The notes under the pieces are model-generated. The model was not told where the DNA came from, did not search any database, and saw only the letters and a program-made list of their open reading frames with translations. From a virus: a DNA stretch of 64,000 nucleotides. Shown here piece by piece: positions 2,249 through 30,388 of the stretch; the stretch's first letter is position 1; every line of letters begins with the position of its first letter. The DNA lies in the IMG/VR virus record IMGVR_UViG_3300025121_000282, positions 186,001-250,000 of that record. The stretch is one strand, 5' to 3'. The position numbers and the translations under genes were made by a program.

Positions 2249-2276
2249 TTGACTGACAATTCTGACTATTGAACGG
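2249..2276 (+). promoter_or_regulatory. module promoter for the 2319 gene
   Basis: TTGACT, 16-base spacer, GAACGG; leftmost copy of the module, 42 bases before the ATG. Confidence 0.4.
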
Positions 2277-2318
2277 GAGAGTGTGTCCACACTTACCTGA
2301 AAGAGGGGGTATAAGTTT

Positions 2319-2570
2319 ATGGCCAAACTTTACGTAGTGTCTACCTGGGGGTTCGATAACGATTCCGTTATCGAGAAAGCCCTGGAAGAACTGAACGTGG
2401 AATTCCTGAAAGTTCCACGGAAAACGGACTGGTCCGACTTCAGAGTGAACCTCGCAGGCGAACACATTGTGGCTCTCTCCGAGAGGTTTGATGTGATGAT
2501 TCACCACGTTACAGGTGACAAAAAGATGATTTTTCTGGATATTAAGGGCAGCAGATTTAAACAGAGGTAA
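2319..2570 (+). CDS. hypothetical small protein
   Basis: 83 residues from ATG 2319, with an AGAGGGGG SD eight bases upstream. The compact alpha/beta pattern begins MAKLYVVSTWGF. The gene is convergent with, and directly abuts, the - strand gene 2571-2810. No family recognised. Confidence 0.6.
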   Translation: MAKLYVVSTWGFDNDSVIEKALEELNVEFLKVPRKTDWSDFRVNLAGEHIVALSERFDVMIHHVTGDKKMIFLDIKGSRFKQR

Positions 2571-2810
2571 TTAGAACTGTTGCCAAATATTCCCAGGTGC
2601 TGCTTGGGGGAGGGGTGGCGCAGAGGTTGTCCCTTTTAGAACGAAAGTGGCATCTCCTGGAATGATGCGCACGGCATCTCCGTTTGGTGCACGTTCCAGG
2701 TGGAGAACTCTGCTATCGCTCATCTCGTATTGGTCGAAGTCTACCACATCATCTGGTATGATGGGTTCGTTGCCTTCGGGTAGATATTTGATTATAACCT
2801 GTATTTTCAT
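2571..2810 (-). CDS. hypothetical small protein, - strand
   Basis: 79 residues from ATG 2810. The N-terminal half is charged and the C-terminal 18 residues are Pro/Ala-rich and probably disordered. A perfect TATAAT box lies about 30 bases upstream on the - strand (complement of 2841-2846), unlike the TTGAC/GAA module used by + strand neighbours. SD is weak. Function unknown. Confidence 0.5.
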   Translation of the reverse strand: MKIQVIIKYLPEGNEPIIPDDVVDFDQYEMSDSRVLHLERAPNGDAVRIIPGDATFVLKGTTSAPPLPQAAPGNIWQQF

Positions 2811-2859
2811 GTAATAATTCTACAATTTACCAAAGCACAGATTATACGCTCTCAGAGGA

Positions 2860-2887
2860 TTGACGATGGGTGGCGAGGGGTGAAGGA
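2860..2887 (+). promoter_or_regulatory. module promoter for the 2927 gene
   Basis: TTGACG, 16-base spacer, GAAGGA; preceded by AGAGGA much as in the copies before the two paralogues. Confidence 0.5.
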
Positions 2888-2926
2888 CCCCAGAAGAGAG
2901 AATCAATCAACTAACTGAGATGGAGA

Positions 2927-3409
2927 ATGAAAATGTCTGGTCGTCGCCCCCGAATCGTCGCTTCTTCCCTCGCCCTTCTCGCCCTTCTCGCCCCCGCGAA
3001 CGCTGCCCCTGAGGAGCAGGGGCAGGAGCCGGTCACGGATGGCCTCCCTGGACCCATCGTGACGCCCGAGCCCGAGCCGGTCCTGGAGCCCGTCTCGCCC
3101 CCCACGGCTGCTCTGCAGCAGAAGGCCCCGGCGCCCCTCTGTCTCTGCGGATGCCTCGTGCAGACCTCCTCGGTTCGTCGCCTCTTCCGCCAGGGCCACG
3201 ACGCCCGCCTCGTGGGCTTCGTCGCTCGTGGCAAGCTGGCCGATGGCTCCGAGCCGAGCCCCGAGCAGACCGCAGCGGCGAACCAGATCCGGAGTGCCAA
3301 GGCTTGGACCGCCGCCCGCCGTCTCCCGCCGGTCCTGGAGGCCGCGACCCAGGAGGAAATCTCGGCCACGGAGCAGGCGGGAGAGGCCACTGCTTCCAAC
3401 GTGGGCTGA
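2927..3409 (+). CDS. CxCGC/GHDAR putative zinc protein, paralogue 1
   Basis: 160 residues, start ATG 2927. The core PLCLCGCLVQTS (about residues 71-82) followed by FRQGHDAR is shared with the proteins at 18505 and 26000. Three closely spaced Cys plus the His suggest a small metal site; related CxCGC...PGHDAR stretches are known to me from phage and actinobacterial hypothetical proteins. The N-terminus differs from its paralogues: a basic start then SLALLALLAPANAA resembles a cleavable signal peptide, whereas the others carry Lys/Thr/Ser tails. A Pro/Glu linker and an Ala-rich C-terminal region ending ASNVG follow. The stop is directly followed by a promoter for a candidate RNA. Function unknown. 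Confidence 0.65.
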   Translation: MKMSGRRPRIVASSLALLALLAPANAAPEEQGQEPVTDGLPGPIVTPEPEPVLEPVSPPTAALQQKAPAPLCLCGCLVQTSSVRRLFRQGHDARLVGFVARGKLADGSEPSPEQTAAANQIRSAKAWTAARRLPPVLEAATQEEISATEQAGEATASNVG

Positions 3410-3437
3410 TTGACCTGTGTCCCCACCGGGTGAAGAA
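3410..3437 (+). promoter_or_regulatory. module promoter for candidate RNA at 3441
   Basis: TTGACC, 16-base spacer, GAAGAA, starting one base after the upstream stop codon. No ORF with an SD follows; a stem-loop RNA candidate does. Confidence 0.6.
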
Positions 3438-3440
3438 TTG

Positions 3441-3554
3441 CAAGACCCGGCTGGAAGTCCTAACTGCAGCGGCCCCTCCCTGTTCATCCTCCCTGTTCAC
3501 AGTGAGGCCCAACATGGACCATCCAATGCTTCGGGGATTCTCAGTCGGGTCTTG
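3441..3554 (+). ncRNA. candidate structured RNA F
   Basis: A perfect 9-bp closing stem (CAAGACCCG at 3441-3449 with CGGGTCTTG at 3546-3554) encloses about 96 bases. Inside are a GTCC/GGAC pairing and a direct repeat of TCCTCCCTGTTCA. It begins four bases after the GAAGAA box of a module promoter and ends just before the next promoter. No convincing ORF lies inside. Size and layout match the other candidates at 17-24 kb, but no known RNA family is recognised. Confidence 0.45.
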
Positions 3555-3565
3555 TTGTATCTGGG

Positions 3566-3593
3566 TTGACCCGGTTTGTTTCCATGTGAAGAA
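3566..3593 (+). promoter_or_regulatory. module promoter for 3614-3851
   Basis: TTGACC, 16-base spacer ending TTTCCATGT, GAAGAA; followed by AAGGAGGA. Confidence 0.6.
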
Positions 3594-3613
3594 TTATAAG
3601 GAGGAACTATAAA

Positions 3614-3664
3614 ATGGCCCCAGTTCACCCTGCGATCCAGTACCTCAAAGACTTGAGGCTCTGA
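3614..3664 (+). pseudogene. truncated 5' copy of the 3848 gene
   Basis: A 16-codon ORF with a strong AAGGAGG SD and a full promoter, ending in QYLKDLRL. The 22 bases CAGTACCTCAAAGACTTGAGG-CT at about 3639-3660 recur exactly inside the gene at 3848-4090, where they encode the same QYLKDLRL. This looks like a duplicated gene that lost everything after residue 16. It may persist as a leader peptide for 3666. Confidence 0.5.
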
Positions 3665-3665
3665 G

Positions 3666-3851
3666 TTGGACTTCACCCGTGCCTCGGTGTGGGTTGACCC
3701 CGACTACTGTCCGCCGAATGATGACAAGACCTTCCGGGTGGACCTCCCCAACAAAGACGTGTTTGTCATCGTTTACCTGCCCGGTGCTGTAGGCCTGAAC
3801 GGCTCGGAAGTGGGCGGGGAATACGGAGATTACGAGGAGTTCGAAAAATGA
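3666..3851 (+). CDS. small acidic hypothetical protein
   Basis: 61 residues if TTG 3666 is used, immediately after the stop of the 16-codon ORF; an internal GTG at about 3687 is an alternative. There is no SD of its own, so expression would depend on re-initiation. The protein is acidic, with an internal beta-rich stretch (DVFVIVYLPGAVGL). The stop overlaps the next ATG (ATGA). Confidence 0.45.
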   Translation: MDFTRASVWVDPDYCPPNDDKTFRVDLPNKDVFVIVYLPGAVGLNGSEVGGEYGDYEEFEK

Positions 3852-4090
3852 GCCTCCCCCACAACGACCCCCAAGTTCTCGGCTATTACCACCAGTACCT
3901 CAAAGACTTGAGGCTGGTTCTGGGTGACCTTGAGTTTTCTCCCAACCTTAACGTGGAGAAAATCATCTGGAAGGGTGCGGAAATCGCAGCCTTGGCGGGG
4001 TACAGCGGGGCATCCAACGATGGTGGTGGTTGGAAACACGTTCTGGAGGGGACCCTGAACTTGTTGTACCGGAGATCAATCGTGGGTTGA
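3848..4090 (+). CDS. hypothetical protein, parent of truncated copy
   Basis: 80 residues, ATG overlapping the upstream stop. Helical N-terminal half (HQYLKDLRLVLGDLEF), then a Gly-rich segment. It contains the 22-base sequence duplicated at about 3639-3660. Its TGA stop lies inside the next TTGACC box (GGT TGA CC). Function unknown. Confidence 0.6.
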   Translation: MSLPHNDPQVLGYYHQYLKDLRLVLGDLEFSPNLNVEKIIWKGAEIAALAGYSGASNDGGGWKHVLEGTLNLLYRRSIVG

Positions 4091-4126
4091 CCACAATCCA
4101 CCAGATAACAAATAGGGGTTTTAGTC

Positions 4127-4381
4127 ATGATATCAGTCTCCGCTGATACAGACCCAGATTTCCTTGCGGCAGTAAACCAGATGGTCGCACAAAACATCGC
4201 CGGTCGGGGGGCGCCTGACCGGGTAAAAATAACCATTCAGAACACTAGCGTTTACTTTCAGGGTCCGGTGAGTTTCCTCGATAGTACCGACCTGGAGCGA
4301 CTTTGCGGATGGCCGGTCCGAGTGTGGTACCACGACCTCACTTCGTTTTTGGTTTGTTACCAGAAGCCAAACCGGGATTGA
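4127..4381 (+). CDS. hypothetical small protein
   Basis: 84 residues from ATG 4127, SD AGGGG. A TTGACC box starts at 4087 but no GAANNN box is found at the usual spacing, so this promoter is doubtful. The protein mixes helical and beta segments and ends NRD; its TGA stop lies within the TTGACC at 4378. Confidence 0.6.
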   Translation: MISVSADTDPDFLAAVNQMVAQNIAGRGAPDRVKITIQNTSVYFQGPVSFLDSTDLERLCGWPVRVWYHDLTSFLVCYQKPNRD

Positions 4382-4405
4382 CCACAACACTCTCCAGACG
4401 AAGAG
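4378..4405 (+). promoter_or_regulatory. module promoter for the 4441 gene
   Basis: TTGACC, 16-base spacer, GAAGAG; the stop of the 4127 gene lies in the first box. Confidence 0.5.
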
Positions 4406-4440
4406 TACCAGACAGAAACCATTATAGGGAGTATTTCAAC

Positions 4441-4650
4441 TTGATTCACCTTTTCTTTCTCGCCATGGCCTCCAGCCTTTCTCCCAACGCCTCCAGCCTC
4501 GACCTGAGTAACATCCCCCACGAGTTTGGGGACACCCGCTACGACGGCAAATGTTGGGAGACGCCCGTCCACCTTATGGACCGTGGTCGCACGATCATTA
4601 TCCGGAAGTGTGAGGGGTGGAAGAACGCAGTGGTCATCCAGTCGAACTGA
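4441..4650 (+). CDS. hypothetical small protein, TTG start preferred
   Basis: 69 residues from TTG 4441, chosen because AGGGAG lies nine bases upstream; the ATG at 4465 has no SD. With the TTG start the N-terminus is hydrophobic (MIHLFFLAM). The rest is polar with two Cys. Function unknown. Confidence 0.45.
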   Translation: MIHLFFLAMASSLSPNASSLDLSNIPHEFGDTRYDGKCWETPVHLMDRGRTIIIRKCEGWKNAVVIQSN

Positions 4651-4678
4651 TTACAACACCATTCAGGAGGACTCTAAA

Positions 4679-4960
4679 ATGTGGCATCCCATTCAGTGCG
4701 GGCGGCCTCGCCATGAGGCTGACCACCCGTTCACGCTATTCGGTGAACTTGTCAAGTACGGAGACACACTGGAGTTCCTCCTACCTGACGGCCATGTCCA
4801 CCCCCCGGTCATGGTTCATGGGGGAAGTGAAAACATCATGGGCGGCACGACGGAGGTGTATGTCTACCTGACTCTGCACGGTCTGTCTGTCAGATATGGG
4901 TTTGGTGCTCTCGCCCAATGCATGGTGAGTGCACGTAAAGCCACCCCGACTCCCGGTTGA
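4679..4960 (+). CDS. hypothetical protein
   Basis: 93 residues from ATG 4679 behind a strong AGGAGGA SD. His-rich N-terminal half (CGRPRHEADHPF, DGHVHPPVMVHGG) and a beta-rich centre. It ends in Gly with its TGA in the TTGACT box at 4957. No family recognised. Confidence 0.6.
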   Translation: MWHPIQCGRPRHEADHPFTLFGELVKYGDTLEFLLPDGHVHPPVMVHGGSENIMGGTTEVYVYLTLHGLSVRYGFGALAQCMVSARKATPTPG

Positions 4961-4985
4961 CTGTAGTCCGTTTCCATGTGAAAAC
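4957..4985 (+). promoter_or_regulatory. module promoter for the 5015 gene
   Basis: TTGACT, 17-base spacer ending TTTCCATGT, GAAAAC. Confidence 0.5.
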
Positions 4986-5014
4986 CAAAGAATCCTAACA
5001 GGGGGACTAAGACA

Positions 5015-5248
5015 ATGAGCGAACACATGATCAGCGTCGACATCTACGTGGACCGCAACAGCCATCCTCACAAACCCGACTATCAGTACCACGTTTCGGC
5101 GCACCTCGCTGGAATTCCCCCGTTGGGATACCGAATTGTAGTCCCAGAGGACAACAACGGAGGAACAACTTACAAGTCCTACGTGGTGGTCGAGGGCTCA
5201 ATGCGGACACACGAACCCGTTGTGATTCTGTACTGCCGGGCGGTGTAA
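5015..5248 (+). CDS. hypothetical small protein
   Basis: 77 residues, ATG 5015, SD AGGGGGA. It is beta-rich throughout with alternating hydrophobics (YKSYVVVEGS, EPVVILYC). It lies just upstream of the tRNA transcription unit. Function unknown. Confidence 0.6.
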   Translation: MSEHMISVDIYVDRNSHPHKPDYQYHVSAHLAGIPPLGYRIVVPEDNNGGTTYKSYVVVEGSMRTHEPVVILYCRAV

Positions 5249-5260
5249 GGCAACCCTGGA

Positions 5261-5288
5261 TTGACCGGGACCGAGACAAGACGAAGAA
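5261..5288 (+). promoter_or_regulatory. module promoter for tRNA-Leu
   Basis: TTGACC, 16-base spacer, GAAGAA, ten bases before the tRNA 5' end. Because a tRNA gene follows, this copy cannot be a translation signal, which supports a promoter role for the whole family. Confidence 0.7.
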
Positions 5289-5297
5289 TCCCAGAGA

Positions 5298-5385
5298 GCG
5301 AGAGTGGCGAAAAACAGGAAGACGCCCTAGCTTCAGGTGCTAGGGGCTGCAAGGCACTCAGGTTCGAATCCTGACTCTCGTACCA
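5298..5385 (+). tRNA. tRNA-Leu (anticodon CAG)
   Basis: Acceptor 5298-5304 (GCGAGAG) pairs with 5375-5381 (CTCTCGT, one G-U). A 3-bp D stem (GCG/CGC) has a 13-base loop containing GG. The anticodon stem CTAGC/GCTAG encloses loop TTCAGGT, giving anticodon CAG at 5334-5336. A long class II variable arm follows, then a T arm TCAGG/CCTGA with loop TTCGAAT. Discriminator A and an encoded CCA end the gene at 5385. It would read CTG, a codon that suits the GC-rich left region. This is the only tRNA found. Confidence 0.9.
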
Positions 5386-5413
5386 CGGTCCAACAAAGGA
5401 GCACTGTTTAAAA

Positions 5414-5464
5414 ATGACCAAATATAATCTTCTGTTCTACGATTTAATCGACCCGTGCCCGTAG
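5414..5464 (+). CDS. possible 16-residue peptide
   Basis: ATG 5414 to TAG 5464 encodes MTKYNLLFYDLIDPCP. An AAAGGAG lies twelve bases upstream, further than usual. It would be co-transcribed with the tRNA. The support is only the start context, so it may not be a gene. Confidence 0.25.
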   Translation: MTKYNLLFYDLIDPCP

Positions 5465-5622
5465 CATCCCTGCCCGCTTCGACTTTTCTAGGGTACATGT
5501 ACGGTGACACGGGAAGGTTCCAATCCCTTTTTGAGTTGTCTAAACCAGTTTAAAGTATGGGTAACAATAAAATGATTCGAGCACCGCCCCGCTGAGGTTA
5601 TGTTAGTTTTTGATAAAAGAAA

Positions 5623-5678
5623 CCAAATGCCCAGACTGGATGACACCGAAACCAAGGTGCTCCTGTTCTGGGCATTGG
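5623..5678 (+). other. stem-loop, possible terminator or small RNA
   Basis: CCAAATGCCCAGA at 5623-5635 pairs with TCTGGGCATTGG at 5667-5678 with one bulged base, around an inner CACC/GGTG hairpin. No U-run follows. It lies between the tRNA unit and the next promoter, so it could end the tRNA transcript. Confidence 0.4.
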
Positions 5679-5703
5679 CGTATTTAGAATACGAAAACCA
5701 TAA

Positions 5704-5732
5704 TTGACTATAATATGTCTCCATGTGAAGAG
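5704..5732 (+). promoter_or_regulatory. module promoter for the 5752 gene
   Basis: TTGACT, 17-base spacer ending CCATGT, GAAGAG; SD AAGGAG follows. Confidence 0.55.
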
Positions 5733-5751
5733 TCTCATAAGGAGAAACCAA

Positions 5752-6096
5752 ATGACAGACCCTGTACGGTTCCACATTGATGCCATCCCCAGAGATTTCG
5801 CGCCCACAACCGAAACGGTCATCCTGTTTGACGATGTGGCGGAGCTTCACATTGATGTCAGGGACCCGGGGGAACTGTGGAAGGTCTGGTTCAAGGACGA
5901 CACTGATTACCCATACCCCACAGAGCGGATGAGTTACGACCACAGCAACCAAACCTGGACGTGGTGTTTCTACGATTACAACGTCCAGGTTCCATGTGAG
6001 ACTTTCGGAATTTGCGCACAGACCGCCTGGATGACCTACATGTACCTGAGCATCCAGTACAGGAAGGGACGTGAGGGAGTCAAAGCCAAGGATTGA
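5752..6096 (+). CDS. hypothetical acidic protein
   Basis: 114 residues, ATG 5752, SD AAGGAG. Acidic, rich in aromatic residues in the second half (QTWTWCFYDYNVQVPC) and probably beta-rich. It ends KAKD, with the TGA inside the TTGACT box at 6093. Function unknown. Confidence 0.6.
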   Translation: MTDPVRFHIDAIPRDFAPTTETVILFDDVAELHIDVRDPGELWKVWFKDDTDYPYPTERMSYDHSNQTWTWCFYDYNVQVPCETFGICAQTAWMTYMYLSIQYRKGREGVKAKD

Positions 6097-6121
6097 CTGC
6101 AATCCGACTCCATGTGAAGAG
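6093..6121 (+). promoter_or_regulatory. module promoter for the 6141 gene
   Basis: TTGACT, 17-base spacer, GAAGAG; overlaps the upstream TGA stop. Confidence 0.55.
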
Positions 6122-6140
6122 CAGTAAGGGAGACGCCAAG

Positions 6141-6455
6141 ATGGTTATCAAACCTGGGACCAAATCCACTACCTTGGGAACGGGTTTGACTTTCAAGGTC
6201 CGAGACCACCGTGGGACATACGGATTTCCCGGCGACCAGTGTGGGTTTGTGTTCAGGTATGACTACCCTGTCCCCGATACTTCCAGGATGGAAGTCTACA
6301 CAATTCAGGCTGATATCGATCGGGATTGGCATGTGAGTTACACTTCCTGGGTTGGACCCAAAGAAGTTATTTGCGGACCCCATAATGAGTCCTACTGGTC
6401 CACAAACGAAGCGGCTGCCCAAGCCCTTGAGTGGTATTTGAAGAGTAGAGGTTGA
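6141..6455 (+). CDS. FPGDQ/ESYW family protein, paralogue 1
   Basis: 104 residues, ATG 6141, SD AAGGGAGA. It is a clear paralogue of the protein at 10975: both contain TTLGT.LTF, DHRG/DYRG, FPGDQ.GFVF, GPKE, ESYW.TNE and an Ala-rich end EW/ELYLK. The repeated pattern suggests one globular beta-rich domain. It ends in Gly with TGA in GGT TGA CC. Function unknown. Confidence 0.65.
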   Translation: MVIKPGTKSTTLGTGLTFKVRDHRGTYGFPGDQCGFVFRYDYPVPDTSRMEVYTIQADIDRDWHVSYTSWVGPKEVICGPHNESYWSTNEAAAQALEWYLKSRG

Positions 6456-6466
6456 CCGCAGTCAAG

Positions 6467-6712
6467 TCATCGAGGTGGTAGAATGCCCTCGTGCTTGATT
6501 CTTTTCTTATTCACTTCTACTATCAAGTCATAATCCGCCCGCAACTTTTCCCGCAGTTCTTCGCTGACTCCCGCAAAACCAAGCCCCGTTTTCTTTATTT
6601 CTGCCATGGTGACGCTGTAGGCATCGTTGGCCTTTTGGCACTGGTCCAACAGGTCTACCATGACGGGGTCGATTTGGGCTATTCGTCTCAGTTGTTTTGC
6701 GAGAGTTATCAT
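6467..6712 (-). CDS. small helical protein, - strand
   Basis: 81 residues from ATG 6712 on the - strand. Almost entirely alpha-helical and charged (EELREKLRADYDLIVEVNKK), soluble and coiled-coil-like. SD is weak. It lacks the TTGAC/GAA module and is more AT-rich than its + strand neighbours. It converges on the 6141 gene and diverges from the 6811 gene. Function unknown. Confidence 0.55.
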   Translation of the reverse strand: MITLAKQLRRIAQIDPVMVDLLDQCQKANDAYSVTMAEIKKTGLGFAGVSEELREKLRADYDLIVEVNKKRIKHEGILPPR

Positions 6713-6757
6713 TTTTGGCTCTTACATGTGTAGTATCCTGGTGGAATAAAAACACAA

Positions 6758-6786
6758 TTGACCATAGTATGTTCCGGTATGAAGAT
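6758..6786 (+). promoter_or_regulatory. module promoter for the 6811 gene
   Basis: TTGACC, 17-base spacer, GAAGAT; SD AGGAGGA follows. Confidence 0.55.
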
Positions 6787-6810
6787 CTGTATAGGAGGAA
6801 CCAATTAAAA

Positions 6811-7068
6811 ATGAGCGATTCCGACACCTACTACTACGTTTCCATCGTCTACTACGGTCACAAGGTCTTCAAGTGCCACGGAATGTGCCCCGACGAGGCG
6901 CATAAAGAGGTCTACCTCCCGCTCTTCGAACAGTATGGAAACAGTCTTCCGTGGCACCAGTGTGGGGATGCGCCCACCGAACGGTACAAGGTGGTCATGA
7001 TGCCCTACGTGGCCGACCGCATCACCCAGAACGAAAATGGGGAGTGGGTTGCTTTCACCGGAACCTGA
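6811..7068 (+). CDS. hypothetical small protein
   Basis: 85 residues, ATG 6811. It starts with a Tyr-rich beta stretch (DTYYYVSIVYYG) and contains CHGMC plus a later Cys, possibly a metal site. The regular pattern suggests a small alpha/beta fold. Family not recognised. Confidence 0.6.
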   Translation: MSDSDTYYYVSIVYYGHKVFKCHGMCPDEAHKEVYLPLFEQYGNSLPWHQCGDAPTERYKVVMMPYVADRITQNENGEWVAFTGT

Positions 7069-7069
7069 A

Positions 7070-7097
7070 TTAACTTGCCTGTTCTTCGGGTGAAAGA
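7070..7097 (+). promoter_or_regulatory. module promoter for the 7121 gene
   Basis: TTAACT, 16-base spacer, GAAAGA; SD AAAGGAG follows. Confidence 0.45.
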
Positions 7098-7120
7098 CCA
7101 CAGAAAGGAGTTGTAACCAA

Positions 7121-7273
7121 ATGCTCGAACAAATCATTCACTCATTTCAACACCTTCACATTCACAATGACCACGGGGAACTCACTGCCCTGGTCGGCCT
7201 GAGTGCCACCTTCGGCATTTCAATCCGCCTGTACTGGAGCCGGATTTGTGCTTTCTTCAAGAAGGGGTGCTGA
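7121..7273 (+). CDS. 50-residue membrane-associated peptide
   Basis: ATG 7121 with AAAGGAG nine to ten bases upstream, stop TGA at 7271. His-rich first third, then a hydrophobic segment (ALVGLSATFGISIRLYW) likely to cross or lie on the membrane, and a basic tail. It is probably co-transcribed with the damaged membrane ORF that follows. Function unknown. Confidence 0.5.
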   Translation: MLEQIIHSFQHLHIHNDHGELTALVGLSATFGISIRLYWSRICAFFKKGC

Positions 7274-7304
7274 TTATAATGAACATCTACAAAAAACCTT
7301 CCTG

Positions 7305-7507
7305 ATGAATGACCCCATTTTCGGCCAAACCATGGGCTTCAGTGCCATCTGGTTCACTTTCAGCCGAGGCCTTGAGTATTACAGCGGCGGCCTTTTCCCG
7401 GGTCCACCAACGTGTGGACCCGGTTCAGTTTCCGCATCCCGTTCGGGCTTCTGACCATCCTCTCGTACATCACGGTTTATTCCACGTACCTCGCCGTTCG
7501 GAGTTGA
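7305..7507 (+). pseudogene. split membrane ORF with a hairpin at the frame junction
   Basis: Frame 1 begins at ATG 7305 (MNDPIFGQTMGFSAIWFTF...) and stops at 7454. The -1 frame then reads VWTRFSFRIPFGLLTILSYI... to the TGA at 7505-7507, a typical transmembrane end. Joined near the CTTTTCCCGGG at about 7391 they give one plausible small membrane protein. A perfect 9-bp hairpin (CGGGTCCAC/GTGGACCCG) sits just after that point. Either a frameshift mutation or a -1 shift is possible. No classic slippery heptamer is present, so a mutation is more likely. Confidence 0.35.
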
Positions 7508-7509
7508 AA

Positions 7510-7815
7510 ATGGCTGACCGATTCATCAACAATGGTTGTCATGCGTGGTTTAGCTATAAGCAGGCAGAGGTGGCTGGGTATCGGGTCCATCAACGACCGG
7601 ATGGGACGACTTATCAGGTGACTACAATCAGTGACACCACAGACCACGGGTGTGGTTGGGATGACATGAAGTACCTCGGTGTCATCGGTCCGGATGATAC
7701 CTCTCTGGGCCAGTACGAGGCCACGGACCCCCTGCAGGCTATGCTCAATCGAGCCGCTGACGAGGCATGGAACGATGCCGCCCTCAACTACTACGAAGAA
7801 ATGGGGTGGGATTGA
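7510..7815 (+). CDS. HAWFS/HGCGWDDM family protein, paralogue 1
   Basis: 101 residues, ATG 7510, weak GGAG upstream. It shares HAWFS/HAWYS, QA..AG, RPDGTTY..TT, HGCGWDDM.YLG.IG with the proteins at 13446 and 16245; the C-terminal 40 residues differ in each copy. It ends GWD with TGA in TTGACC. The conserved Cys, His and Asp cluster hints at a catalytic or metal role, but no known family is recognised. Confidence 0.65.
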   Translation: MADRFINNGCHAWFSYKQAEVAGYRVHQRPDGTTYQVTTISDTTDHGCGWDDMKYLGVIGPDDTSLGQYEATDPLQAMLNRAADEAWNDAALNYYEEMGWD

Positions 7816-7839
7816 CCTATTCGGTGCCTGTGTGAATGG
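7812..7839 (+). promoter_or_regulatory. module promoter for the 7870 gene
   Basis: TTGACC, 16-base spacer, GAATGG; overlaps the upstream stop. Confidence 0.5.
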
Positions 7840-7869
7840 ACATGGTTGGCCACAAAGGAGCCCACTAAA

Positions 7870-8190
7870 ATGAAAGCCAAGGTCTCGTGTGAACTGTGTC
7901 CGAACGAGGAGGGTGTTTCCACCATGTACCTCGTTTTTGAGGCACCCTACCATTCTCCCAGCGGGGTTGAAGGAGTCTTTATCAACGAGGAATGCGGGGA
8001 TTGGGTCTCTATCTCCACCCTCGACGACGAGACCTTCACGTTTGCAGACGAAGTGAGTGGAAAAACCGCCACCTTCACCGAAAGAGAGTTGACTGCTCTC
8101 GTCTGCGAGGCCATGAAATCTCAGTATGGCTGGTCTTGGACTGGTCCCGTGATGTTTGTGGCAAAGGTCATGTACAAACACAAAGTCTGA
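7870..8190 (+). CDS. hypothetical protein
   Basis: 106 residues, ATG 7870, SD AAAGGAG. The N-terminal CELC pair and a later EECG suggest a possible zinc site. The middle is acidic and beta-rich, the C-terminus hydrophobic then basic (VAKVMYKHKV). Function unknown. Confidence 0.6.
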   Translation: MKAKVSCELCPNEEGVSTMYLVFEAPYHSPSGVEGVFINEECGDWVSISTLDDETFTFADEVSGKTATFTERELTALVCEAMKSQYGWSWTGPVMFVAKVMYKHKV

Positions 8191-8209
8191 CACCTTTTAG
8201 TCCTGACGG

Positions 8210-8237
8210 TTGACCGATCGTAGCCTCAGGTGAAGAA
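8210..8237 (+). promoter_or_regulatory. module promoter for the 8274 gene
   Basis: TTGACC, 16-base spacer, GAAGAA. Confidence 0.55.
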
Positions 8238-8273
8238 TTATAGACACCAATCGACTGCAACAAGGAAAATTGA

Positions 8274-24040: not shown

Positions 24041-24051
24041 TTAAAGCTGGA

Positions 24052-24286: not shown

Positions 24287-24314
24287 TTGACCCGTTTCCA
24301 TCTCGGGTGAAAAA
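24287..24314 (+). promoter_or_regulatory. module promoter for the 24319 gene
   Basis: TTGACC, 16-base spacer, GAAAAA, four bases before the ATG. Confidence 0.5.
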
Positions 24315-24318
24315 CAAC

Positions 24319-24714: not shown

Positions 24715-24746
24715 TTCAGCCATAACTCCCTGGTGACAAGTTGCAA

Positions 24747-24774
24747 TTGACCGAACTTTCGTTCAGGCGAAAGT
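24747..24774 (+). promoter_or_regulatory. module promoter for the 24807 gene
   Basis: TTGACC, 16-base spacer, GAAAGT. Confidence 0.5.
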
Positions 24775-24806
24775 TCTGGAGAGACAACCAACCACGAAGA
24801 TTCCAA

Positions 24807-25025
24807 ATGACCCTCCCCATCACGATTTTCGTTGTCACGACCGCCTCGTCCATTGACGAAAACACACCGAACCCGAAGGTGATGGTGGGACACCTCTCCG
24901 AAGGCGAAATCTGGAACCAGTTCACCGAGCTCCTGGGTGGGTCTGACTGCGAACTCATCCAGGAGAGCGAAACCCGCTGGACCGGCGTCGTGGGAGACCG
25001 GACGGTCTTCGCCTTCCACGCCTGA
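24807..25025 (+). CDS. hypothetical small protein
   Basis: 72 residues, ATG 24807. Starts with a hydrophobic strand (LPITIFVVTTASS); the C-terminal half is polar with a single Cys. SD is weak (GAAGA). Function unknown. Confidence 0.55.
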   Translation: MTLPITIFVVTTASSIDENTPNPKVMVGHLSEGEIWNQFTELLGGSDCELIQESETRWTGVVGDRTVFAFHA

Positions 25026-25085
25026 ACGATTGACGGGCTTTGTTTCTGTCTGACGAACACCACACCAACAAGGGAGACTTCGAAA

Positions 25086-25304
25086 ATGACTCGCGAAACC
25101 GTCACCAAGTGCATTGCCTTCATTTACATCTGCCTTTGCACCATTGGCCTCGGCGCCATGGCGGGCCTGCAGGAGCGGCAGTTCAGCGGGGCATGGTGGG
25201 TGCTCAGTCTCCTGATGGCCGCGGTCGTGGCGGTCATGGGCCTCATGGCCACCGTCTGCGAGCGCAAGCACCTGGGTTGGCGAATCTGGGTCGAAGAGTG
25301 CTGA
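25086..25304 (+). CDS. small two-TM membrane protein
   Basis: 72 residues, ATG 25086, SD AGGGAGA. Two hydrophobic helices (about residues 9-26 and 39-58) with a charged loop and a basic C-terminus. TTGACG occurs at 25030, but the spacer to GAACAC is 19 bases. Membrane location is clear; holin-like function cannot be claimed. Confidence 0.6.
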   Translation: MTRETVTKCIAFIYICLCTIGLGAMAGLQERQFSGAWWVLSLLMAAVVAVMGLMATVCERKHLGWRIWVEEC

Positions 25305-25332
25305 TTGACGGAGCCTCCTGAGGGGCGAAGAG
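25305..25332 (+). promoter_or_regulatory. module promoter for the 25365 gene
   Basis: TTGACG, 16-base spacer, GAAGAG. Confidence 0.55.
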
Positions 25333-25364
25333 TCCCAGACCAACAACCAAGAGGAGACCGCACG

Positions 25365-25709
25365 ATGCCATTCCCCACCCCCCAGATCGAAGCTGCCACT
25401 CCCACCCCCTGCTCCGCCTTTCGGGCGTGGGCTGTCTACGCCGACTTCGACGGCAATGCGCCTGACACCAAGGACCTCGTCCTTTGCGCCTCCGAACCGC
25501 TGGCGCAAGCGGCGGCAGAGTTCCTCGCGTGGGCTGCCGACGAGCAGCAGGCGAACTGTTACAATGGCGCTGACTGCGACCCTGATGCCGATGGTGTTGC
25601 CGTCCCATCGGTCGACGAAGCGAATCGCGCGAGGAATTTCGTGGTCCGCGAGACCGTGGCCTCTCGGGTCTGCACGACCTGGGACGAGGTGTTGGCCGAC
25701 CTTCGCTAA
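25365..25709 (+). CDS. hypothetical Ala-rich acidic protein
   Basis: 114 residues, ATG 25365, SD GAGGAGA. Alternates beta and Ala-rich helices and has a DCDPDADGVAV stretch reminiscent of a Ca-binding loop, although one loop alone is weak evidence. Followed by a strong hairpin that may end transcription. Confidence 0.6.
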   Translation: MPFPTPQIEAATPTPCSAFRAWAVYADFDGNAPDTKDLVLCASEPLAQAAAEFLAWAADEQQANCYNGADCDPDADGVAVPSVDEANRARNFVVRETVASRVCTTWDEVLADLR

Positions 25710-25741
25710 CCTGACCTTCGTCCTCGACTGAGAGTCGTCAA

Positions 25742-25779
25742 GCTGTGCCCAGTCTGCCGAGAGGTGGCCTGGGCACAGC
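25742..25779 (+). terminator. 11-bp perfect stem-loop, possible terminator
   Basis: GCTGTGCCCAG pairs with CTGGGCACAGC around a 16-base loop, 32 bases after the 25365 gene. No U-run follows. Confidence 0.4.
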
Positions 25780-25841
25780 CGTACCTGAGTTCTGAGAGAT
25801 TCGTCCTCACAGGCATCCGGCTCTTCGGGCTGATTGGCCGA

Positions 25842-25869
25842 TTGACGGAGGGTCGCAGCGGGTGAAAAA
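25842..25869 (+). promoter_or_regulatory. module promoter upstream of the 25907 hairpin
   Basis: TTGACG, 16-base spacer, GAAAAA; a short transcript from it would contain an AGAGGAC/GTCCTCC hairpin and enter H2. Confidence 0.45.
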
Positions 25870-25906
25870 GGATAAGAGGACGAGATAGTTTCGTTTCGGT
25901 CCTCCT

Positions 25907-25944
25907 GCCCCGGTCCCCCGACTAAGGATTGACGGACCCGGGGC
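25907..25944 (+). other. covarying hairpin H2 around GACTAAGGATTGAC
   Basis: GCCCCGGTCC (25907-25916) pairs with GGACCCGGGGC (25934-25944) with one bulged base. The loop CCCGACTAAGGATTGAC matches the loop of H1 at 18402, but the stem bases differ on both sides. Confidence 0.5.
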
Positions 25945-25956
25945 CGAGACGAAGAA
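25929..25956 (+). promoter_or_regulatory. module promoter for the 26000 gene
   Basis: TTGACG, 16-base spacer, GAAGAA; the first box lies in hairpin H2. Confidence 0.55.
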
Positions 25957-25999
25957 TCCCAGAGACAGCGAATCAACCCAAGACGAAGGAGATCATCCC

Positions 26000-26506
26000 A
26001 TGGCCACCAAGTCCACCAAGAGCACCACCAAGTCCCCCCGCGCCACCCGCAAGCAGGCCGAGGTCCTCGACGCCCTCGGTTTCCCGGTCCCCGCCATCAT
26101 GGAGGCCGCTCCCGAGCCCGTCGTGGCGCCCGAGCCCGAAATCCCGGTGGTCGTGGCCGTCAAGGCCGAAAAGGCGGTCCGAGTCGTCCCCGAGGCCCCG
26201 CTCTGCCTCTGCGGCTGCCTCGTGCAGACGAGCAGCCACCTGCGGACCTTCCGCCAGGGCCATGACGCCCGGCTGGTGGGCTTCCTGGCCGCCAACGAGC
26301 GGGCGGTCGCGAAGCAGAAGGAGGCCCCTCACAACCTCTCGGAGGCGCAGATCACCGCCGCCTGCCAGATCCGGAACCGCAAGGCGGAGGCCGCCGCCGC
26401 GAAGCTCCCTTCGACCTCGTCGAAGCCCGTGCTGGAGGCCGCTCCTGCGGAGCAGAACGAAGCCGAGCAGAGCACGGACGAGCAGGACGCCGCGAACGCC
26501 GGCTGA
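26000..26506 (+). CDS. CxCGC/GHDAR putative zinc protein, paralogue 3
   Basis: 168 residues, ATG 26000, SD AAGGAGA. Lys/Thr/Ser tail (TKSTKSTTKSPRATRK), Pro/Glu/Val linker, then PLCLCGCLVQTSSHLR and FRQGHDARLVGFLA (about residues 72-100), then an Ala-rich helical region. Nearly identical to the 18505 protein over the tail and core; the C-terminal tail is longer and acidic. Even the leader regions match. Possibly a nucleoid-type or RNA-binding factor; unproven. Confidence 0.65.
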   Translation: MATKSTKSTTKSPRATRKQAEVLDALGFPVPAIMEAAPEPVVAPEPEIPVVVAVKAEKAVRVVPEAPLCLCGCLVQTSSHLRTFRQGHDARLVGFLAANERAVAKQKEAPHNLSEAQITAACQIRNRKAEAAAAKLPSTSSKPVLEAAPAEQNEAEQSTDEQDAANAG

Positions 26507-26552
26507 TCGGGCCTTCGTCTGACCGACCCGCCCGTCAAGCTTTCCGAGCCGA

Positions 26553-26580
26553 TTGACCGCAGCCTCTGAGGGGCGAAGGA
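26553..26580 (+). promoter_or_regulatory. module promoter for the 26630 gene
   Basis: TTGACC, 16-base spacer, GAAGGA. The leader then folds GGGGCGAA (from 26569) onto TTCGCCCC (to 26602), running into C10 at 26599-26608. Confidence 0.5.
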
Positions 26581-26629
26581 ATCCCGAGGGCAGTTTCGCC
26601 CCCCCCCCACCAACAGAGGACCATTTACA

Positions 26630-26962
26630 ATGATCAGCGCTTTTCGGGACATGGTTGCTGAATTCGAACGGACCAAGGCTGCTTTCGAAGCCGCACAACG
26701 GAAGTTGGAGCAGGGACGGCGGCAGTGTGCCCATCTGTGGGGACCCACCCAATACGATCCCATCAGGACCAAGGGATACGAAAAGCAGGACCTCATGGGT
26801 CATTTCACGGTGAGCCAGGACGGTCACGTCAACGCTCCCACGGTGTACATCCCTCCGACCGAAACCCCGCAGTGGGTCCGCACCTGCGAACACTGTGGAC
26901 TGACCGAAACCACCCGGCAGACAACAGAGCAGAAGAGCTACACGCCGAAGTTCGGGCAGTAG
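26630..26962 (+). CDS. hypothetical protein with zinc-ribbon-like Cys/His
   Basis: 110 residues, ATG 26630, SD AGAGGA. A charged helix (residues 3-33) precedes CAHLWG; CEHCGLTET occurs near residue 88. The C..H and CxxC pairs at a distance resemble a split zinc ribbon. Function unknown. Confidence 0.6.
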   Translation: MISAFRDMVAEFERTKAAFEAAQRKLEQGRRQCAHLWGPTQYDPIRTKGYEKQDLMGHFTVSQDGHVNAPTVYIPPTETPQWVRTCEHCGLTETTRQTTEQKSYTPKFGQ

Positions 26963-26967
26963 GGGGA

Positions 26968-26995
26968 TTGACCGAATCGCACGATGGGTGAAAGA
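26968..26995 (+). promoter_or_regulatory. module promoter for the 27000 gene
   Basis: TTGACC, 16-base spacer GAATCGCACGATGGGT, GAAAGA; ATG follows four bases later. Confidence 0.5.
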
Positions 26996-26999
26996 ACAT

Positions 27000-27260
27000 A
27001 TGAGCACACCACAAGAAATCCAGGCCCAGAAAACCCTCATTCAGCGGCTCGATGCGGCCGGAATCCTGGACAGTGAGAAGGACTGCGACTTCAAGCTTCG
27101 GGACGAGTTGTTCTTCCGGGTGGGCAACACGATCTTCGGGTATGAGGACCCCACAATCACGGAGGTTCCCTCAACCACGATGGGTGACGATGTCAGCACC
27201 TACGAGGTGAACTACGTCAGAATGCTCGCCGTGTGGGTTGACCCGGTCAAGATCCTGTAG
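27000..27260 (+). CDS. hypothetical small protein, possibly leaderless
   Basis: 86 residues from ATG 27000. The start lies four bases past the GAAAGA box and no SD exists, so a leaderless mRNA is likely. Charged N-terminal helix then mixed alpha/beta. The next promoter lies in its last codons. Function unknown. Confidence 0.55.
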   Translation: MSTPQEIQAQKTLIQRLDAAGILDSEKDCDFKLRDELFFRVGNTIFGYEDPTITEVPSTTMGDDVSTYEVNYVRMLAVWVDPVKIL

Positions 27261-27265
27261 AAAAA
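27238..27265 (+). promoter_or_regulatory. module promoter for the 27279 gene
   Basis: TTGACC, 16-base spacer, GAAAAA, inside the end of the 27000 gene. Confidence 0.4.
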
Positions 27266-27278
27266 TGGGTCAAGTAAA

Positions 27279-27578
27279 ATGAAATGGTGGCTCTCATTCT
27301 GCGATGCAACCCTACCAAGGGGCTCTCAATTCTTGGGTGCTTGCATCGTGGAAGGTGAAAGCATGATCGAGGCGGTAAAGAGTGCACATCGCCTCGGATG
27401 CAACCCTGGTGGAGAAGTCCAGGGCTGTCCTGTTCAAGAAGATCTGGTCATTGCCGATAGGTGGCTTTCACGCTTGTTATCGCGTGAAGAGTGTACACAG
27501 GTGGATGAAGAAGTGTACAAGGCCAAGTTGAAATTGACCGAATCGCACGATCGGTTGAACAAAGGTGCGGGACACTAA
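27279..27578 (+). CDS. hypothetical small protein
   Basis: 99 residues, ATG 27279, weak SD. Starts MKWWLSFCDAT; residues 25-45 form a helix (GESMIEAVKSAHRLG), followed by CNPGGEVQGCPV, a pattern seen in small phage proteins of unknown function. It overlaps the HNH gene by 14 bases. Confidence 0.55.
   Translation: MKWWLSFCDATLPRGSQFLGACIVEGESMIEAVKSAHRLGCNPGGEVQGCPVQEDLVIADRWLSRLLSREECTQVDEEVYKAKLKLTESHDRLNKGAGH
27534..27562 (+). promoter_or_regulatory. module promoter for the HNH gene
   Basis: TTGACC, 17-base spacer beginning GAATCGCACGAT, GAACAA, within the previous gene. Confidence 0.4.
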
Positions 27579-28128
27579 CTCAGTTAGCAAAGAATGCCTA
27601 CATTGCAAGGTTTCGTTTGTCCCACCGTACAGAAATAGACAAAAGAAATTTTGTTGTGTAGAGCACTCTCGTCTGTGGCAGAGCCAAACCCTGACTAACC
27701 AGAACACCGTCTCACGCGACGGGAAGTGTCGAAAGTGTGCTATCACCATAGACACCAACTTTCCGGGCAAAAATAGAGGTGGGCGTAGTAGACTATGTGC
27801 CAAGTGTTTCAGCAACTACACCAGTGAGCGTTATCTTTCCAGAAAACTGGCTTTAATTGAGTTTTTGGGCGGAAAATGTCATGACTATGGGCAGCAGTAC
27901 CATTATGCTGCCATGCAGTTTCATCACACGGACCCCAACAGCAAAGAGTTTGACTGGAGCCGTTTAAGACGACAGTCTCTCGCCACTGTGCTAAATGAAA
28001 TTAGCAAGTGTGCTTTGCTCTGCAATAATTGCCATGCAATAAGGCACTGTCAATCCCAGATAAGTGACGAGTCTCTAAGAATGAAAAATAACTTCCTCGC
28101 TGACTTAAGATCGGCGCACGCCTTTTAA
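27565..28128 (+). CDS. HNH endonuclease
   Basis: 187 residues, GTG 27565. An N-terminal Cys cluster (CLHCKVSF...KFCC) and a second (CRKC) resemble zinc ribbons. The HNH core is GGKCHDYG...AAMQFHHTDPNSKEF...EISKCALLCNNCHAIRH (about residues 95-160), matching free-standing phage homing endonucleases; HH and the later N and H are present. The usual CxxC at its start reads CHDY, so one zinc ligand is missing and activity may be reduced. It is less GC-rich than its left neighbours, consistent with mobility. Confidence 0.8.
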   Translation: MRDTNSVSKECLHCKVSFVPPYRNRQKKFCCVEHSRLWQSQTLTNQNTVSRDGKCRKCAITIDTNFPGKNRGGRSRLCAKCFSNYTSERYLSRKLALIEFLGGKCHDYGQQYHYAAMQFHHTDPNSKEFDWSRLRRQSLATVLNEISKCALLCNNCHAIRHCQSQISDESLRMKNNFLADLRSAHAF

Positions 28129-28202
28129 GCGTTGAGGTTCTGGGTTTCTACCCCCAGGTTGAAACCACCACCCGCAAGAATCGATGCGCCCCGAAAAGAA
28201 AG

Positions 28203-28254
28203 AATCGCACGATGAGTCCCCTGGTGATTGTCCATCACGGGTTATCGTGCGATT
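28203..28254 (+). promoter_or_regulatory. inverted repeat AATCGCACGAT, operator-like
   Basis: AATCGCACGAT (28203-28213) pairs with ATCGTGCGATT (28244-28254), around an inner GGTGAT/ATCACC-like hairpin. Its right arm touches the TTGACC at 28253. The half-site recurs near several promoters between 24.6 and 28.6 kb. Confidence 0.45.
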
Positions 28255-28280
28255 GACCCGTCCAACCCGAGATTGAAGTA
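28253..28280 (+). promoter_or_regulatory. module promoter for 28285-28541
   Basis: TTGACC, 16-base spacer, GAAGTA; abuts the inverted repeat. Confidence 0.5.
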
Positions 28281-28284
28281 ATCC

Positions 28285-28317
28285 ATGGCACACACATCCC
28301 ACAAAAGGTCCTTGTAA
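28285..28317 (+). CDS. possible 10-residue leader peptide
   Basis: ATG 28285 encodes MAHTSHKRSL and its TAA overlaps the ATG of the next ORF (TAATGA), which suggests coupling. Very short and without an SD; speculative. Confidence 0.2.
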   Translation: MAHTSHKRSL

Positions 28318-28541
28318 TGACAACCCCGGCAGGGCCCATGGCGACAGAGTACGTGGCACACGCTGAAACTTGTCCGCGATGTGAGACTGTAGACCGTGGA
28401 GTTGTGTCTGATTCCCGATTAAGACCAGGGTCCAGATGTCCAGTAGGTAAAATACTGGTCAAAGCAGCAGTGAGGGAAGATGTCCGTTTAGGCAGGTGCC
28501 ATCCCAACGGGCAAAGCAAGAGTTTTGTGTCCCCCAAGTAG
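28317..28541 (+). CDS. hypothetical zinc-ribbon-like small protein
   Basis: 74 residues, ATG 28317, SD AAAGG. TCPRCETVDRG near residue 18 with later Cys residues (RCPVGK, RCHPNG) suggests a short zinc ribbon. Basic overall (many Arg and Lys). Function unknown. Confidence 0.5.
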   Translation: MTTPAGPMATEYVAHAETCPRCETVDRGVVSDSRLRPGSRCPVGKILVKAAVREDVRLGRCHPNGQSKSFVSPK

Positions 28542-28603
28542 TTCTACTATCCGAAGTCGTGGTCAATCACAGACCATAATCGTGCGATTCCAGAAGGTTG
28601 TAA

Positions 28604-28631
28604 TTGACGAATCGCATGATGGGGTGAAAAA
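28604..28631 (+). promoter_or_regulatory. module promoter in the intergenic hub
   Basis: TTGACG, 16-base spacer containing AATCGCATGAT, GAAAAA; no clear gene downstream. Confidence 0.4.
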
Positions 28632-28673
28632 TAGTGGGAGTCCGAGAAATTACAACAGGGCAAAGGTGGATAA

Positions 28674-28701
28674 TTGACAGAGCACGGGGAAGGTGGAAAT
28701 A
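28674..28701 (+). promoter_or_regulatory. module promoter in the intergenic hub
   Basis: TTGACA, 16-base spacer, GAAATA; next plausible start is ATG 28928. Confidence 0.4.
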
Positions 28702-28927
28702 CCCCACGGAAGGAAACGGGGGAGTCCGAAATATACCCCATTTCCCGAAAGGTCGGGGGCCGTCAAATGTATATATCGATATATATTTCCAGAGGTATAT
28801 ATCATCTTGCGCGTGCTCCAATGTACCTGGACGAATATTCGGATACAAACGTTTGATAACTTGTTAGTGCTGTTTTGGTCGCACCTACGTTGTTTCGTTG
28901 TTCCATTAAAAACAGGAGTGTGTGACC

Positions 28928-29149
28928 ATGCTCGTCTACCTACTCATCAATGAAAAAGCCACTACCTACCTAGACAAGTGGCGGCTATTCGCTTCTAAAC
29001 AGGAGTGCTTAGCCGCTGCCCGAAAGCTGGGTTATGGTTCGTCCCCGTTCGGAGAATTCGGTTCTCTGAGTGACGAGCCTGGAAAAATTACCCAGGAGAT
29101 GGGTTGTAACCGACTGGCTTGGATATCACCATGGTTCCTGTCATACTAG
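28928..29149 (+). CDS. hypothetical small protein
   Basis: 73 residues from ATG 28928; AGGAG ten bases upstream. Strand-helix start (MLVYLLINEKATTYLDKWR) then a helix with AAARKLG, a layout found in small phage proteins. This is the first gene of the more AT-rich region. Function unknown. Confidence 0.55.
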   Translation: MLVYLLINEKATTYLDKWRLFASKQECLAAARKLGYGSSPFGEFGSLSDEPGKITQEMGCNRLAWISPWFLSY

Positions 29150-29305
29150 ACATACCATAGTGAATATACTGTATTGCAGTATGCACCCGGGTTGGTTGTT
29201 ATCTCCTCAAGGTTGTAGTACTATTTTGGTTTTGGAAATTATTTATATCTGGGCTGCAGTAGGTACAAATATTCGGTCAGGATAGAAATTGGAGATTGTA
29301 ATTAG

Positions 29306-29533
29306 ATGCTTGCACTTGGCTTATTTTTAATCACCATCGGCTCAGCTGGTATTGCCATAATTTTGTTTGAGGCTGTAATCGAACTCAGCAAAATGAAACG
29401 CAGAGTCTTCAGCAGCGATCAGTGGGTCGACTTGTTTTCTCAAAACATTATCCTGTTGACAGTAAGTGCTTTGGCTGCTTTTTCCGTCCTTGTGGGGGTT
29501 GTTTTGACCCTCGTTGGTTTGCTCAAAAACTGA
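29306..29533 (+). CDS. small two-TM membrane protein
   Basis: 75 residues, ATG 29306, SD GGAGA. Two transmembrane helices (about residues 2-23 and 47-72) joined by a charged loop (SKMKRRVFSSDQW). Function unknown. The 150 bases upstream hold an ATACTG/CAGTAT hairpin at about 29177. Confidence 0.6.
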   Translation: MLALGLFLITIGSAGIAIILFEAVIELSKMKRRVFSSDQWVDLFSQNIILLTVSALAAFSVLVGVVLTLVGLLKN

Positions 29534-29546
29534 GGAGCGTAATGCC

Positions 29547-30338
29547 ATGTCTGAATTGGTAGCCCTTTCTAAAACCTTGCCTCGTCACCCGGGATACGTG
29601 TCCTTCGTGAACGAATCTAGATTTTTACCCGGCAGAAGCCGAATACTCCGTGAGCAAGGAGTCGTTGTCTTTGTCCGTGAATCAGACGGGACGGGAGGAC
29701 TAGAATTCCCGTTCTGGTGTAATTTCCAAAAACTAAAAGACTTGGGTCATACCAAGGGCTGGGTTCCAAAATGGTTTGTCCCCGCGGGCAGAGGACGCGC
29801 CTTGCTTCGGGTCAAACCAACCGAGTACAAAACAATGCCTCTCGGAGAATTCAAGTACAAGACGTGCGAGCCCAACTATCAGTATCAGGACGAGGTAATC
29901 ATGAAAGACTTCTTCCGGCACGCAGAGGGCATCCGGGACGGCTTGTTTGATAACAGGACCTCGTCCGACTTCAAGGGTGAGGAAAACAATTTCAACGACA
30001 CGTTGAGAGCCATTTATGCCAAAATAGCTTCACGTGATTTCCCGTTCGAGGTCGGTGACTGGGTCTATGTCCCGTTGAACGGCGGAGAACTTCAGACCAA
30101 AGCCCAGATTCAGCTGACGAAATATGACTTTGACCCGAATTGTTGTGTTGTGAGACTCGAACCATTTCTTGCGGAAGACGCCACTGGGAAATCCAAACTT
30201 CTCACCAGCGGGGGTGTCCAGGTTATTAGAAAAAGCTTGGTTACGCAACGGGCTTTTCCTCCGGTCCCGTACGAATCCAAGCGAGGAATCGGCGCCAAAT
30301 ACGACCCGACTCCTTATATCAATCTCGATTGGGAATAA
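29547..30338 (+). CDS. hypothetical protein
   Basis: 263 residues from ATG 29547, set by GAGGAG nine bases upstream. Basic and aromatic, with no membrane segment. A central acidic loop (DNRTSSDFKGEENNFNDT) separates two beta-rich halves. No known domain recognised. Confidence 0.7.
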   Translation: MSELVALSKTLPRHPGYVSFVNESRFLPGRSRILREQGVVVFVRESDGTGGLEFPFWCNFQKLKDLGHTKGWVPKWFVPAGRGRALLRVKPTEYKTMPLGEFKYKTCEPNYQYQDEVIMKDFFRHAEGIRDGLFDNRTSSDFKGEENNFNDTLRAIYAKIASRDFPFEVGDWVYVPLNGGELQTKAQIQLTKYDFDPNCCVVRLEPFLAEDATGKSKLLTSGGVQVIRKSLVTQRAFPPVPYESKRGIGAKYDPTPYINLDWE

Positions 30339-30360
30339 GTACAAGGCGCAGTAATTATAA

Positions 30361-30388
30361 TTGACTACAAGCTCGGTCTACTGAAATA
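30361..30388 (+). promoter_or_regulatory. module promoter for the 30418 gene
   Basis: TTGACT, 16-base spacer, GAAATA; the rightmost copy seen. Confidence 0.45.

Follow-up and report, generated by a model that had tools for sequence, protein, structure and literature searches.

A jumbo phage genome carries close to a hundred copies of a two-box module that very probably acts as a promoter. Nearly all copies lie on one strand, in a block of ~90 kb, ahead of tiny genes, a tRNA and small folded RNAs. The best overall reading, which we slightly favour, is a promoter class read by the host core RNA polymerase (RNAP) with a sigma specificity that is unusual or changed by the phage.

We analysed a window of 64,000 nucleotides that covers bases 186001-250000 of a virus record 314,886 bp long, by its size a jumbo phage. 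The phage encodes T4-like replication genes (UvsX-like recombinase, clamp and clamp loader), RIIA-like, GroEL-like and baseplate-like proteins, and PurZ with related enzymes. Megablast of 20 kb of the window against phage records gave no DNA-level match, and queries with PurB, GuaA and DNA polymerase found no close relative. Most named phage matches to GroEL and GuaA were set aside, as the genes appear to be bacterial and the records mislabelled or contaminated. Scanning IMG/VR with the strict consensus for relatives bearing the same motif returned only eight single chance matches.

A strand-biased array of one module

Exact matches to TTGAC-N16..18-GAA number 65 in the window versus 9.35 ± 3.2 expected, and nearly all are on the plus strand between 2.2 and 30.4 kb. 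The distance from TTGAC to GAA on the plus strand of the first 31 kb peaks sharply at 17 (n = 39), with 11 copies at 18 and 4 at 16; the other strand holds 6 copies in total at these distances. We refined a two-block matrix on genome 127-217 kb and counted sites of at least 8 bits, which yielded 98 on the plus strand of that region versus 6 on the minus strand and ~2.6 in shuffles. The window's share of the array (2860..30385, plus strand) comprises 59 sites of the form TT(G/A)AC-N16-18-GAA(G/T)AAY ahead of tiny genes, with scored positions spanning 2860-30361. Within array upstreams, the module was observed 29 times versus 0.6 expected, and only 5 of the 98 sites fall inside a running open reading frame (ORF).

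To hold out part of the data, we built a matrix from the window only. Applied to the separate 126-186 kb region, it found 25 plus-strand sites, 3 minus-strand sites and 2.2 in shuffled sequence; in the late region it found 4 and 0 on the two strands. Late structural genes mostly lack the module. The few good copies outside the array are in gene orientation, such as the one at genome position 79216 on the minus strand, ahead of a 373-codon frame.

These counts bear on an earlier note, which had described nearly 60 promoter-like copies between 2.2 and 30.4 kb. That number stands, given the 59 plus-strand sites of at least 8 bits at 2.86-30.4 kb, but the first copy listed (2249) is weak and falls under the matrix threshold. 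The array is present over the 28 kb first described, yet the whole block measures ~90 kb: a matrix search of the kind that the note had called for confirmed the strand bias and extended the array left to ~127 kb. Its description of one copy per gene holds approximately, since in the window's part of the array 31 of 49 starts with a Shine-Dalgarno sequence have a site 15-80 nt upstream, and per-gene counts are themselves approximate because gene calls were ad hoc.

Motif anatomy and predicted transcription start

The consensus reads gATT(G/A)ACC...TTTCC(A/G)(G/T)G(T/C)GAA(G/T)AA(T/C)cMYAnRR. TTGAC, the first box as originally given, is the majority form of a -35 box that is better written TT(G/A)AC, with TTAAC in ~19% of copies. 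The second box was first given as GAA(G/A)NN; its GAA is near-invariant, but GAA(G/T)AAY describes the remainder better. The spacer part TTTCCATG keeps its register with GAA and not with TTGAC, as does the conserved spacer part TTTCCATGT, found in a subset of copies.

Two features match those of a sigma-type promoter: a pair of conserved boxes whose spacing varies by ±1 (16-18 bp, inside the 15-19 bp range of such promoters), and a fixed pyrimidine-then-purine initiator downstream of the second box. Counting from the G of GAA in strong sites, position 9 is a pyrimidine in 93% and position 10 a purine in 92%, and these positions look like -1 and +1. Placing +1 at position 10 puts the beginning of GAA at -10 and TTGAC at -32 to -28. 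The next best candidate for +1 would be position 12, a purine in 93% of strong sites.

The module typically sits 20-50 nt ahead of Shine-Dalgarno starts (median about 40 nt), and such a start follows within 15-60 nt at 48% of sites versus 6.7% of random positions. The best-scoring copy, TTGACCGCTTTCGTTTCCATGTGAAGAATCCCA (14756..14788, plus strand, 39.8 bits), has its predicted +1 at 14788. Another plus-strand copy, of the TTTCCATGTGAA subtype (3566..3598), is followed by a leader, a Shine-Dalgarno sequence and an ATG. Two copies at 22865 and 23169 (22865..23258, plus strand) are identical in promoter and leader and form a duplicated promoter-leader unit. The sequence by itself establishes the array and where its copies sit, together with the initiator and the regularities of strand and spacing.

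A tRNA and structured RNAs behind the module

The earlier report that copies also precede a tRNA and ORF-free RNAs was borne out, and the positions of these RNAs relative to the predicted start are informative. One copy (5261..5293, plus strand; predicted +1 5293) lies ahead of a tRNA-Leu (CAG) with an encoded CCA at 5298..5385 on the same strand, so that the tRNA's 5' end lies 5 nt beyond the predicted start. ARAGORN called this tRNA, with some doubt, as it had no Rfam match at E 0.5. A second copy (19031..19063, plus strand; predicted +1 19063) precedes a 165-nt structured non-coding RNA (19067..19231, plus strand; z = -10.3) with a 25-bp terminal stem that encloses a multi-branch loop bearing three hairpins. 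Its stem begins 4 nt after the predicted +1, and the RNA contains no plus-strand ORF of at least 60 aa and has no Rfam match. Just downstream, a copy of the longer spacing variant (19239..19272, plus strand; predicted +1 19272) is followed by a 69-nt structured non-coding RNA (19271..19339, plus strand; z = -4.8), whose long terminal stem starts from the predicted +1 to within a base. An Rfam search of window 1-32 kb found no match. All three RNAs, the tRNA and the two folded ones, start 0-5 nt past the predicted +1, and together they lend independent, indirect support to its placement.

Compact cassettes with overlapping stop codons

Genes tied to the putative promoters are small (median 98 aa), and almost all lack a known family. 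Among the 25 that end between -60 and +40 nt of the following site, the stop codon falls exactly inside T-TGA-C or T-TAA-C at 10 gene ends, and for 19 the end lies between -7 and +4. The -35 box thus often doubles as the stop codon of the preceding gene. Three successive copies (21062, 21384 and 21723; 21062..21747, plus strand), in which TTGAC holds the preceding gene's TGA stop, illustrate this compact promoter-gene cassette. If the copies are transcribed as predicted, placing the stop codon within the -35 box would let a promoter-per-gene layout persist without intergenic space. Terminator-like hairpins or sites in the array were not above chance, so transcription is likely to read through between neighbouring cassettes.

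Comparison with known promoter systems

Phages with very many promoters are already known, T4 and AR9 among them, and the view that a promoter per gene is very unusual for phages was overstated. T4 has dozens of early promoters that, like the array, share one strand, lie among tiny host-takeover genes and have a sigma-type two-box form; they are of the sigma-70 type with TATAAT, whereas the array has GAAKAAY. ECF (group 4) sigma promoters, GGAAC-N16/17-GTT/GTC, resemble the module in pairing a pentamer with a trinucleotide at a similar spacing and distance to +1. Their boxes differ, however, and GGAAC-type sites occur once in array upstreams against 1.0 expected.

In the jumbo phage AR9, start-site mapping placed 159 sites ahead of 134 of the 293 genes (PMC5312081), and its genome likewise holds a great many short promoters. 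AR9 differs in having its own multisubunit RNAPs and the motifs AAATATATATTAT and AACA-6-TA/G, while the array phage has no RpoB homolog. There is precedent, too, for two-part promoters that depend on a phage sigma: the late promoters of Salmonella phage 7-11, GTAAtg-16-aCTA, are used by host core RNAP with the phage sigma SaPh711_gp47 (PMC8948821). These too are phage-specific, with short boxes ~16-17 apart and a non-canonical -10, but they number only eight, serve late genes and have a known full sigma (PMC8948821). The array, by contrast, has ~98 copies with other boxes ahead of tiny non-structural genes, and no full sigma was found. Start-associated sequences of Cluster K mycobacteriophages are likewise one repeated element in one orientation upstream of many small genes; in the part of the report considered here, they are tied to translation starts, about half come with paired 17-bp inverted repeats, and no two-box, variable-spacer structure is described (PMC3203893). 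We met no precedent in the literature compared for this box pair, this array density or the stop-codon overlap.

Phage proteins that might read the array

The dedicated sigma factor or RNA polymerase proposed in the earlier note was sought and not found: our searches of the phage turned up no sigma region 2 (the record is possibly incomplete, and a very diverged form may escape detection), no full ECF sigma and no RpoB-like subunit. The RpoB-like family PF00562 was absent while controls were positive, and as far as an RpoB-like subunit goes, the phage does not resemble phiKZ/AR9-type phages with their own RNAP. A PF00940 search for single-subunit RNAP gave no match in the phage, and none in the control genomes either. 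Of the two sigma regions, 2 and 4, that mark phage-encoded systems of the 7-11/phiEco32 type, only region 4 is present.

That region belongs to a 215-aa sigma-region-4-like protein (genome 18879-19526) in which region 4 scores above the Pfam cut-off and a second helix-turn-helix is present. Its AlphaFold model, based on 5 sequences, matches solved sigma-4 domains (target TM 0.8-0.87). Just upstream are the clamp loader and a NusG-like gene, which matches a PHROG antiterminator (E 2.5e-6) but stays under the Pfam cut-off for NusG. The 485-kb phage LR745208, the nearest among named phages that carry the sigma-4-like protein, keeps this gene order. Its genome is not enriched in the array motif, and pair-enrichment revealed no strong or obvious motif of its own; other carriers of the protein have no clear excess either. 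That LR745208 has this cassette but not the motif speaks against a straightforward link between the protein and the array. Within its family, our phage's protein is the divergent member in the region-4 helix-turn-helix, which would fit a changed -35 target without proving one, and its own gene has no strong module upstream. We regard it as possible, though less likely than not, that this protein reads the array, and treat the link as a lead only.

Alternative explanations

Promoter function is favoured because the boxes stay intact while the spacer varies by ±1, the initiator is fixed and copies abut a tRNA and folded RNAs. The same features uphold the earlier preference for transcription over translation as far as promoter-like behaviour goes, although not the dedicated reader attached to it. 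Many same-orientation copies, with TTTCCATGT conserved in a subset, are what a repressor or activator site might also give. We nevertheless consider it very unlikely that the module is a non-promoter protein-binding site (an operator, a stoperator or a start-associated sequence as in mycobacteriophages): two boxes, one-base spacing variation and a separate initiator are unexpected for a single site, TTTCCATGT is in register with GAA rather than TTGAC, and L5-type stoperators are one continuous asymmetric site with no variable spacer. Still more improbable is a translation or mRNA-processing signal. Copies do lie 20-50 nt ahead of start codons, but they also stand right ahead of the tRNA and two folded RNAs that have no reading frames, and the -35-like box is often within the preceding gene's stop codon.

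Which sigma reads such a promoter is a harder question. As first described, the second box is not TATAAT: it has no T at -12, its GAA is near-invariant, and it departs from the housekeeping sigma-70 -10 element TANNNT (T at -12, A at -11, T at -7). TTGACN-16-18-TANNNT was found in 0 of 102 array upstreams, where canonical sigma-70, TATAAT, T4-late, ECF GGAAC and 7-11 patterns were not clearly enriched, and we found no strong alternative promoter motif upstream of non-array genes. These could even so be ordinary T4-early-style immediate-early promoters read by an unmodified host sigma, either alternative or unusual primary. Dense blocks of tiny genes without known function are typically early host-takeover genes, TTGAC with a 16-18 spacing fits sigma-70-family holoenzymes, AAKAAY at 17-bp spacing agrees with TATAAT at 4 of 6 positions (the AAGAAT cases), and a complete phage sigma was not found. 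If the array were immediate-early, moreover, the host holoenzyme would have to read it before any phage factor was made, which counts against phage-altered reading. We judge an unmodified host sigma possible but rather unlikely, given the near-invariant GAA and the loss of the housekeeping -12 T and -7 T. In addition, none of 397 genomes from Actinomycetota, a single phylum that may not be the host's, has an excess of the strict pattern; it occurs at most twice per genome of 1-10 Mb versus 10 times in the 0.3-Mb phage. That the specificity differs from that of the host housekeeping sigma seems more probable than not.

Proposed mechanism and significance

We infer the transcription of the array, its reader protein and its timing. 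In the favoured reading, in which host core RNAP has an unusual or phage-changed sigma specificity, a sigma-type holoenzyme would recognise both boxes at once, TT(G/A)AC around -32 to -28 and GAA(G/T)AAY from -10 onward, and would begin transcription at the position-10 purine, counted from the G of GAA. Each copy would drive either a tiny gene, alone or in a short group, or an RNA (a tRNA or a small structured RNA), with probable read-through to the cassette that follows. Since a normal housekeeping -10 does not look like GAAKAAY, the holoenzyme would most likely be host core RNAP whose specificity is changed by a phage sigma or a sigma-appropriating factor. Of the phage's proteins, the sigma-4-like one encoded beside the NusG-like factor is the strongest candidate for a component of this machinery.

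A more speculative and quite improbable version is a split sigma, in which the free-standing region-4-like protein, with its two helix-turn-helix units, would read TT(G/A)AC and an unrecognised region-2 partner would read GAA. The DNA so read may contain 2-aminoadenine, a possibility raised by the encoded PurZ and related enzymes. If true, promoters would here be recognised by a new kind of system, one fitted to a modified genome.

If its transcription is confirmed, the array would be a very dense and uniform phage promoter array. Its roughly one hundred naturally varying copies of a single non-canonical promoter could be aligned directly to decipher a new sigma specificity. The array would also point to the sigma-4-like and NusG-like proteins as candidates to test, and would show where the transcription units lie in a dense block whose genes are almost without known relatives.

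Nucleotide enzymes and DNA modification

On the - strand, the phage carries a gene for a PurZ-like adenylosuccinate synthetase (sequence stretch L014:16256-18679, genome 286256-288679). The gene is split by an intein, and its product has QAWGSSGKG at the place of PurA's GDEGKGK. Taken with PurB-, GuaA- and GuaB-like enzymes (window 43168-44436, L012:14222-15745 and L012:15753-16859, respectively) and a family A DNA polymerase (L017:3575-6352), the predicted protein points to a possible 2-aminoadenine (Z) genome.

The PurZ-like gene sits between those of two Mom-like DNA modification proteins (L014:14678-16213 and L014:18682-19992, - strand). Outside the array, ARAGORN called a - strand tRNA with a CUA anticodon as tRNA-Pyl (L014:14600-14674). 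It is possibly an amber suppressor; TAG remains in use as a stop in the phage's predicted genes. Six - strand tRNA genes (Glu, Ser, Arg, Gln, Thr and Val) are scattered within L042:4375-16846.

Putative transcription genes, a peptidase and array contents

The NusG-like (L016:18328-18831) and sigma-4-like (L016:18879-19526) genes form a pair, adjoined by a clamp loader, that is common to the huge phage LR745208. Relatives of the sigma-4-like protein also occur in contigs L060 and L061, binned as Actinomycetota and Altiarchaeales.

An M16 (insulinase-like) peptidase is encoded at window 33709-34959.

Structured RNA 1 (window 19067-19231) is a strongly folded orphan (z -10.3) with no Rfam match. 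Three paralogous array genes (window 2933-3409, 18505-18975 and 26000-26506) share 47-49% identity in a multiple alignment, which suggests that the array grew through duplicated promoter-gene cassettes.
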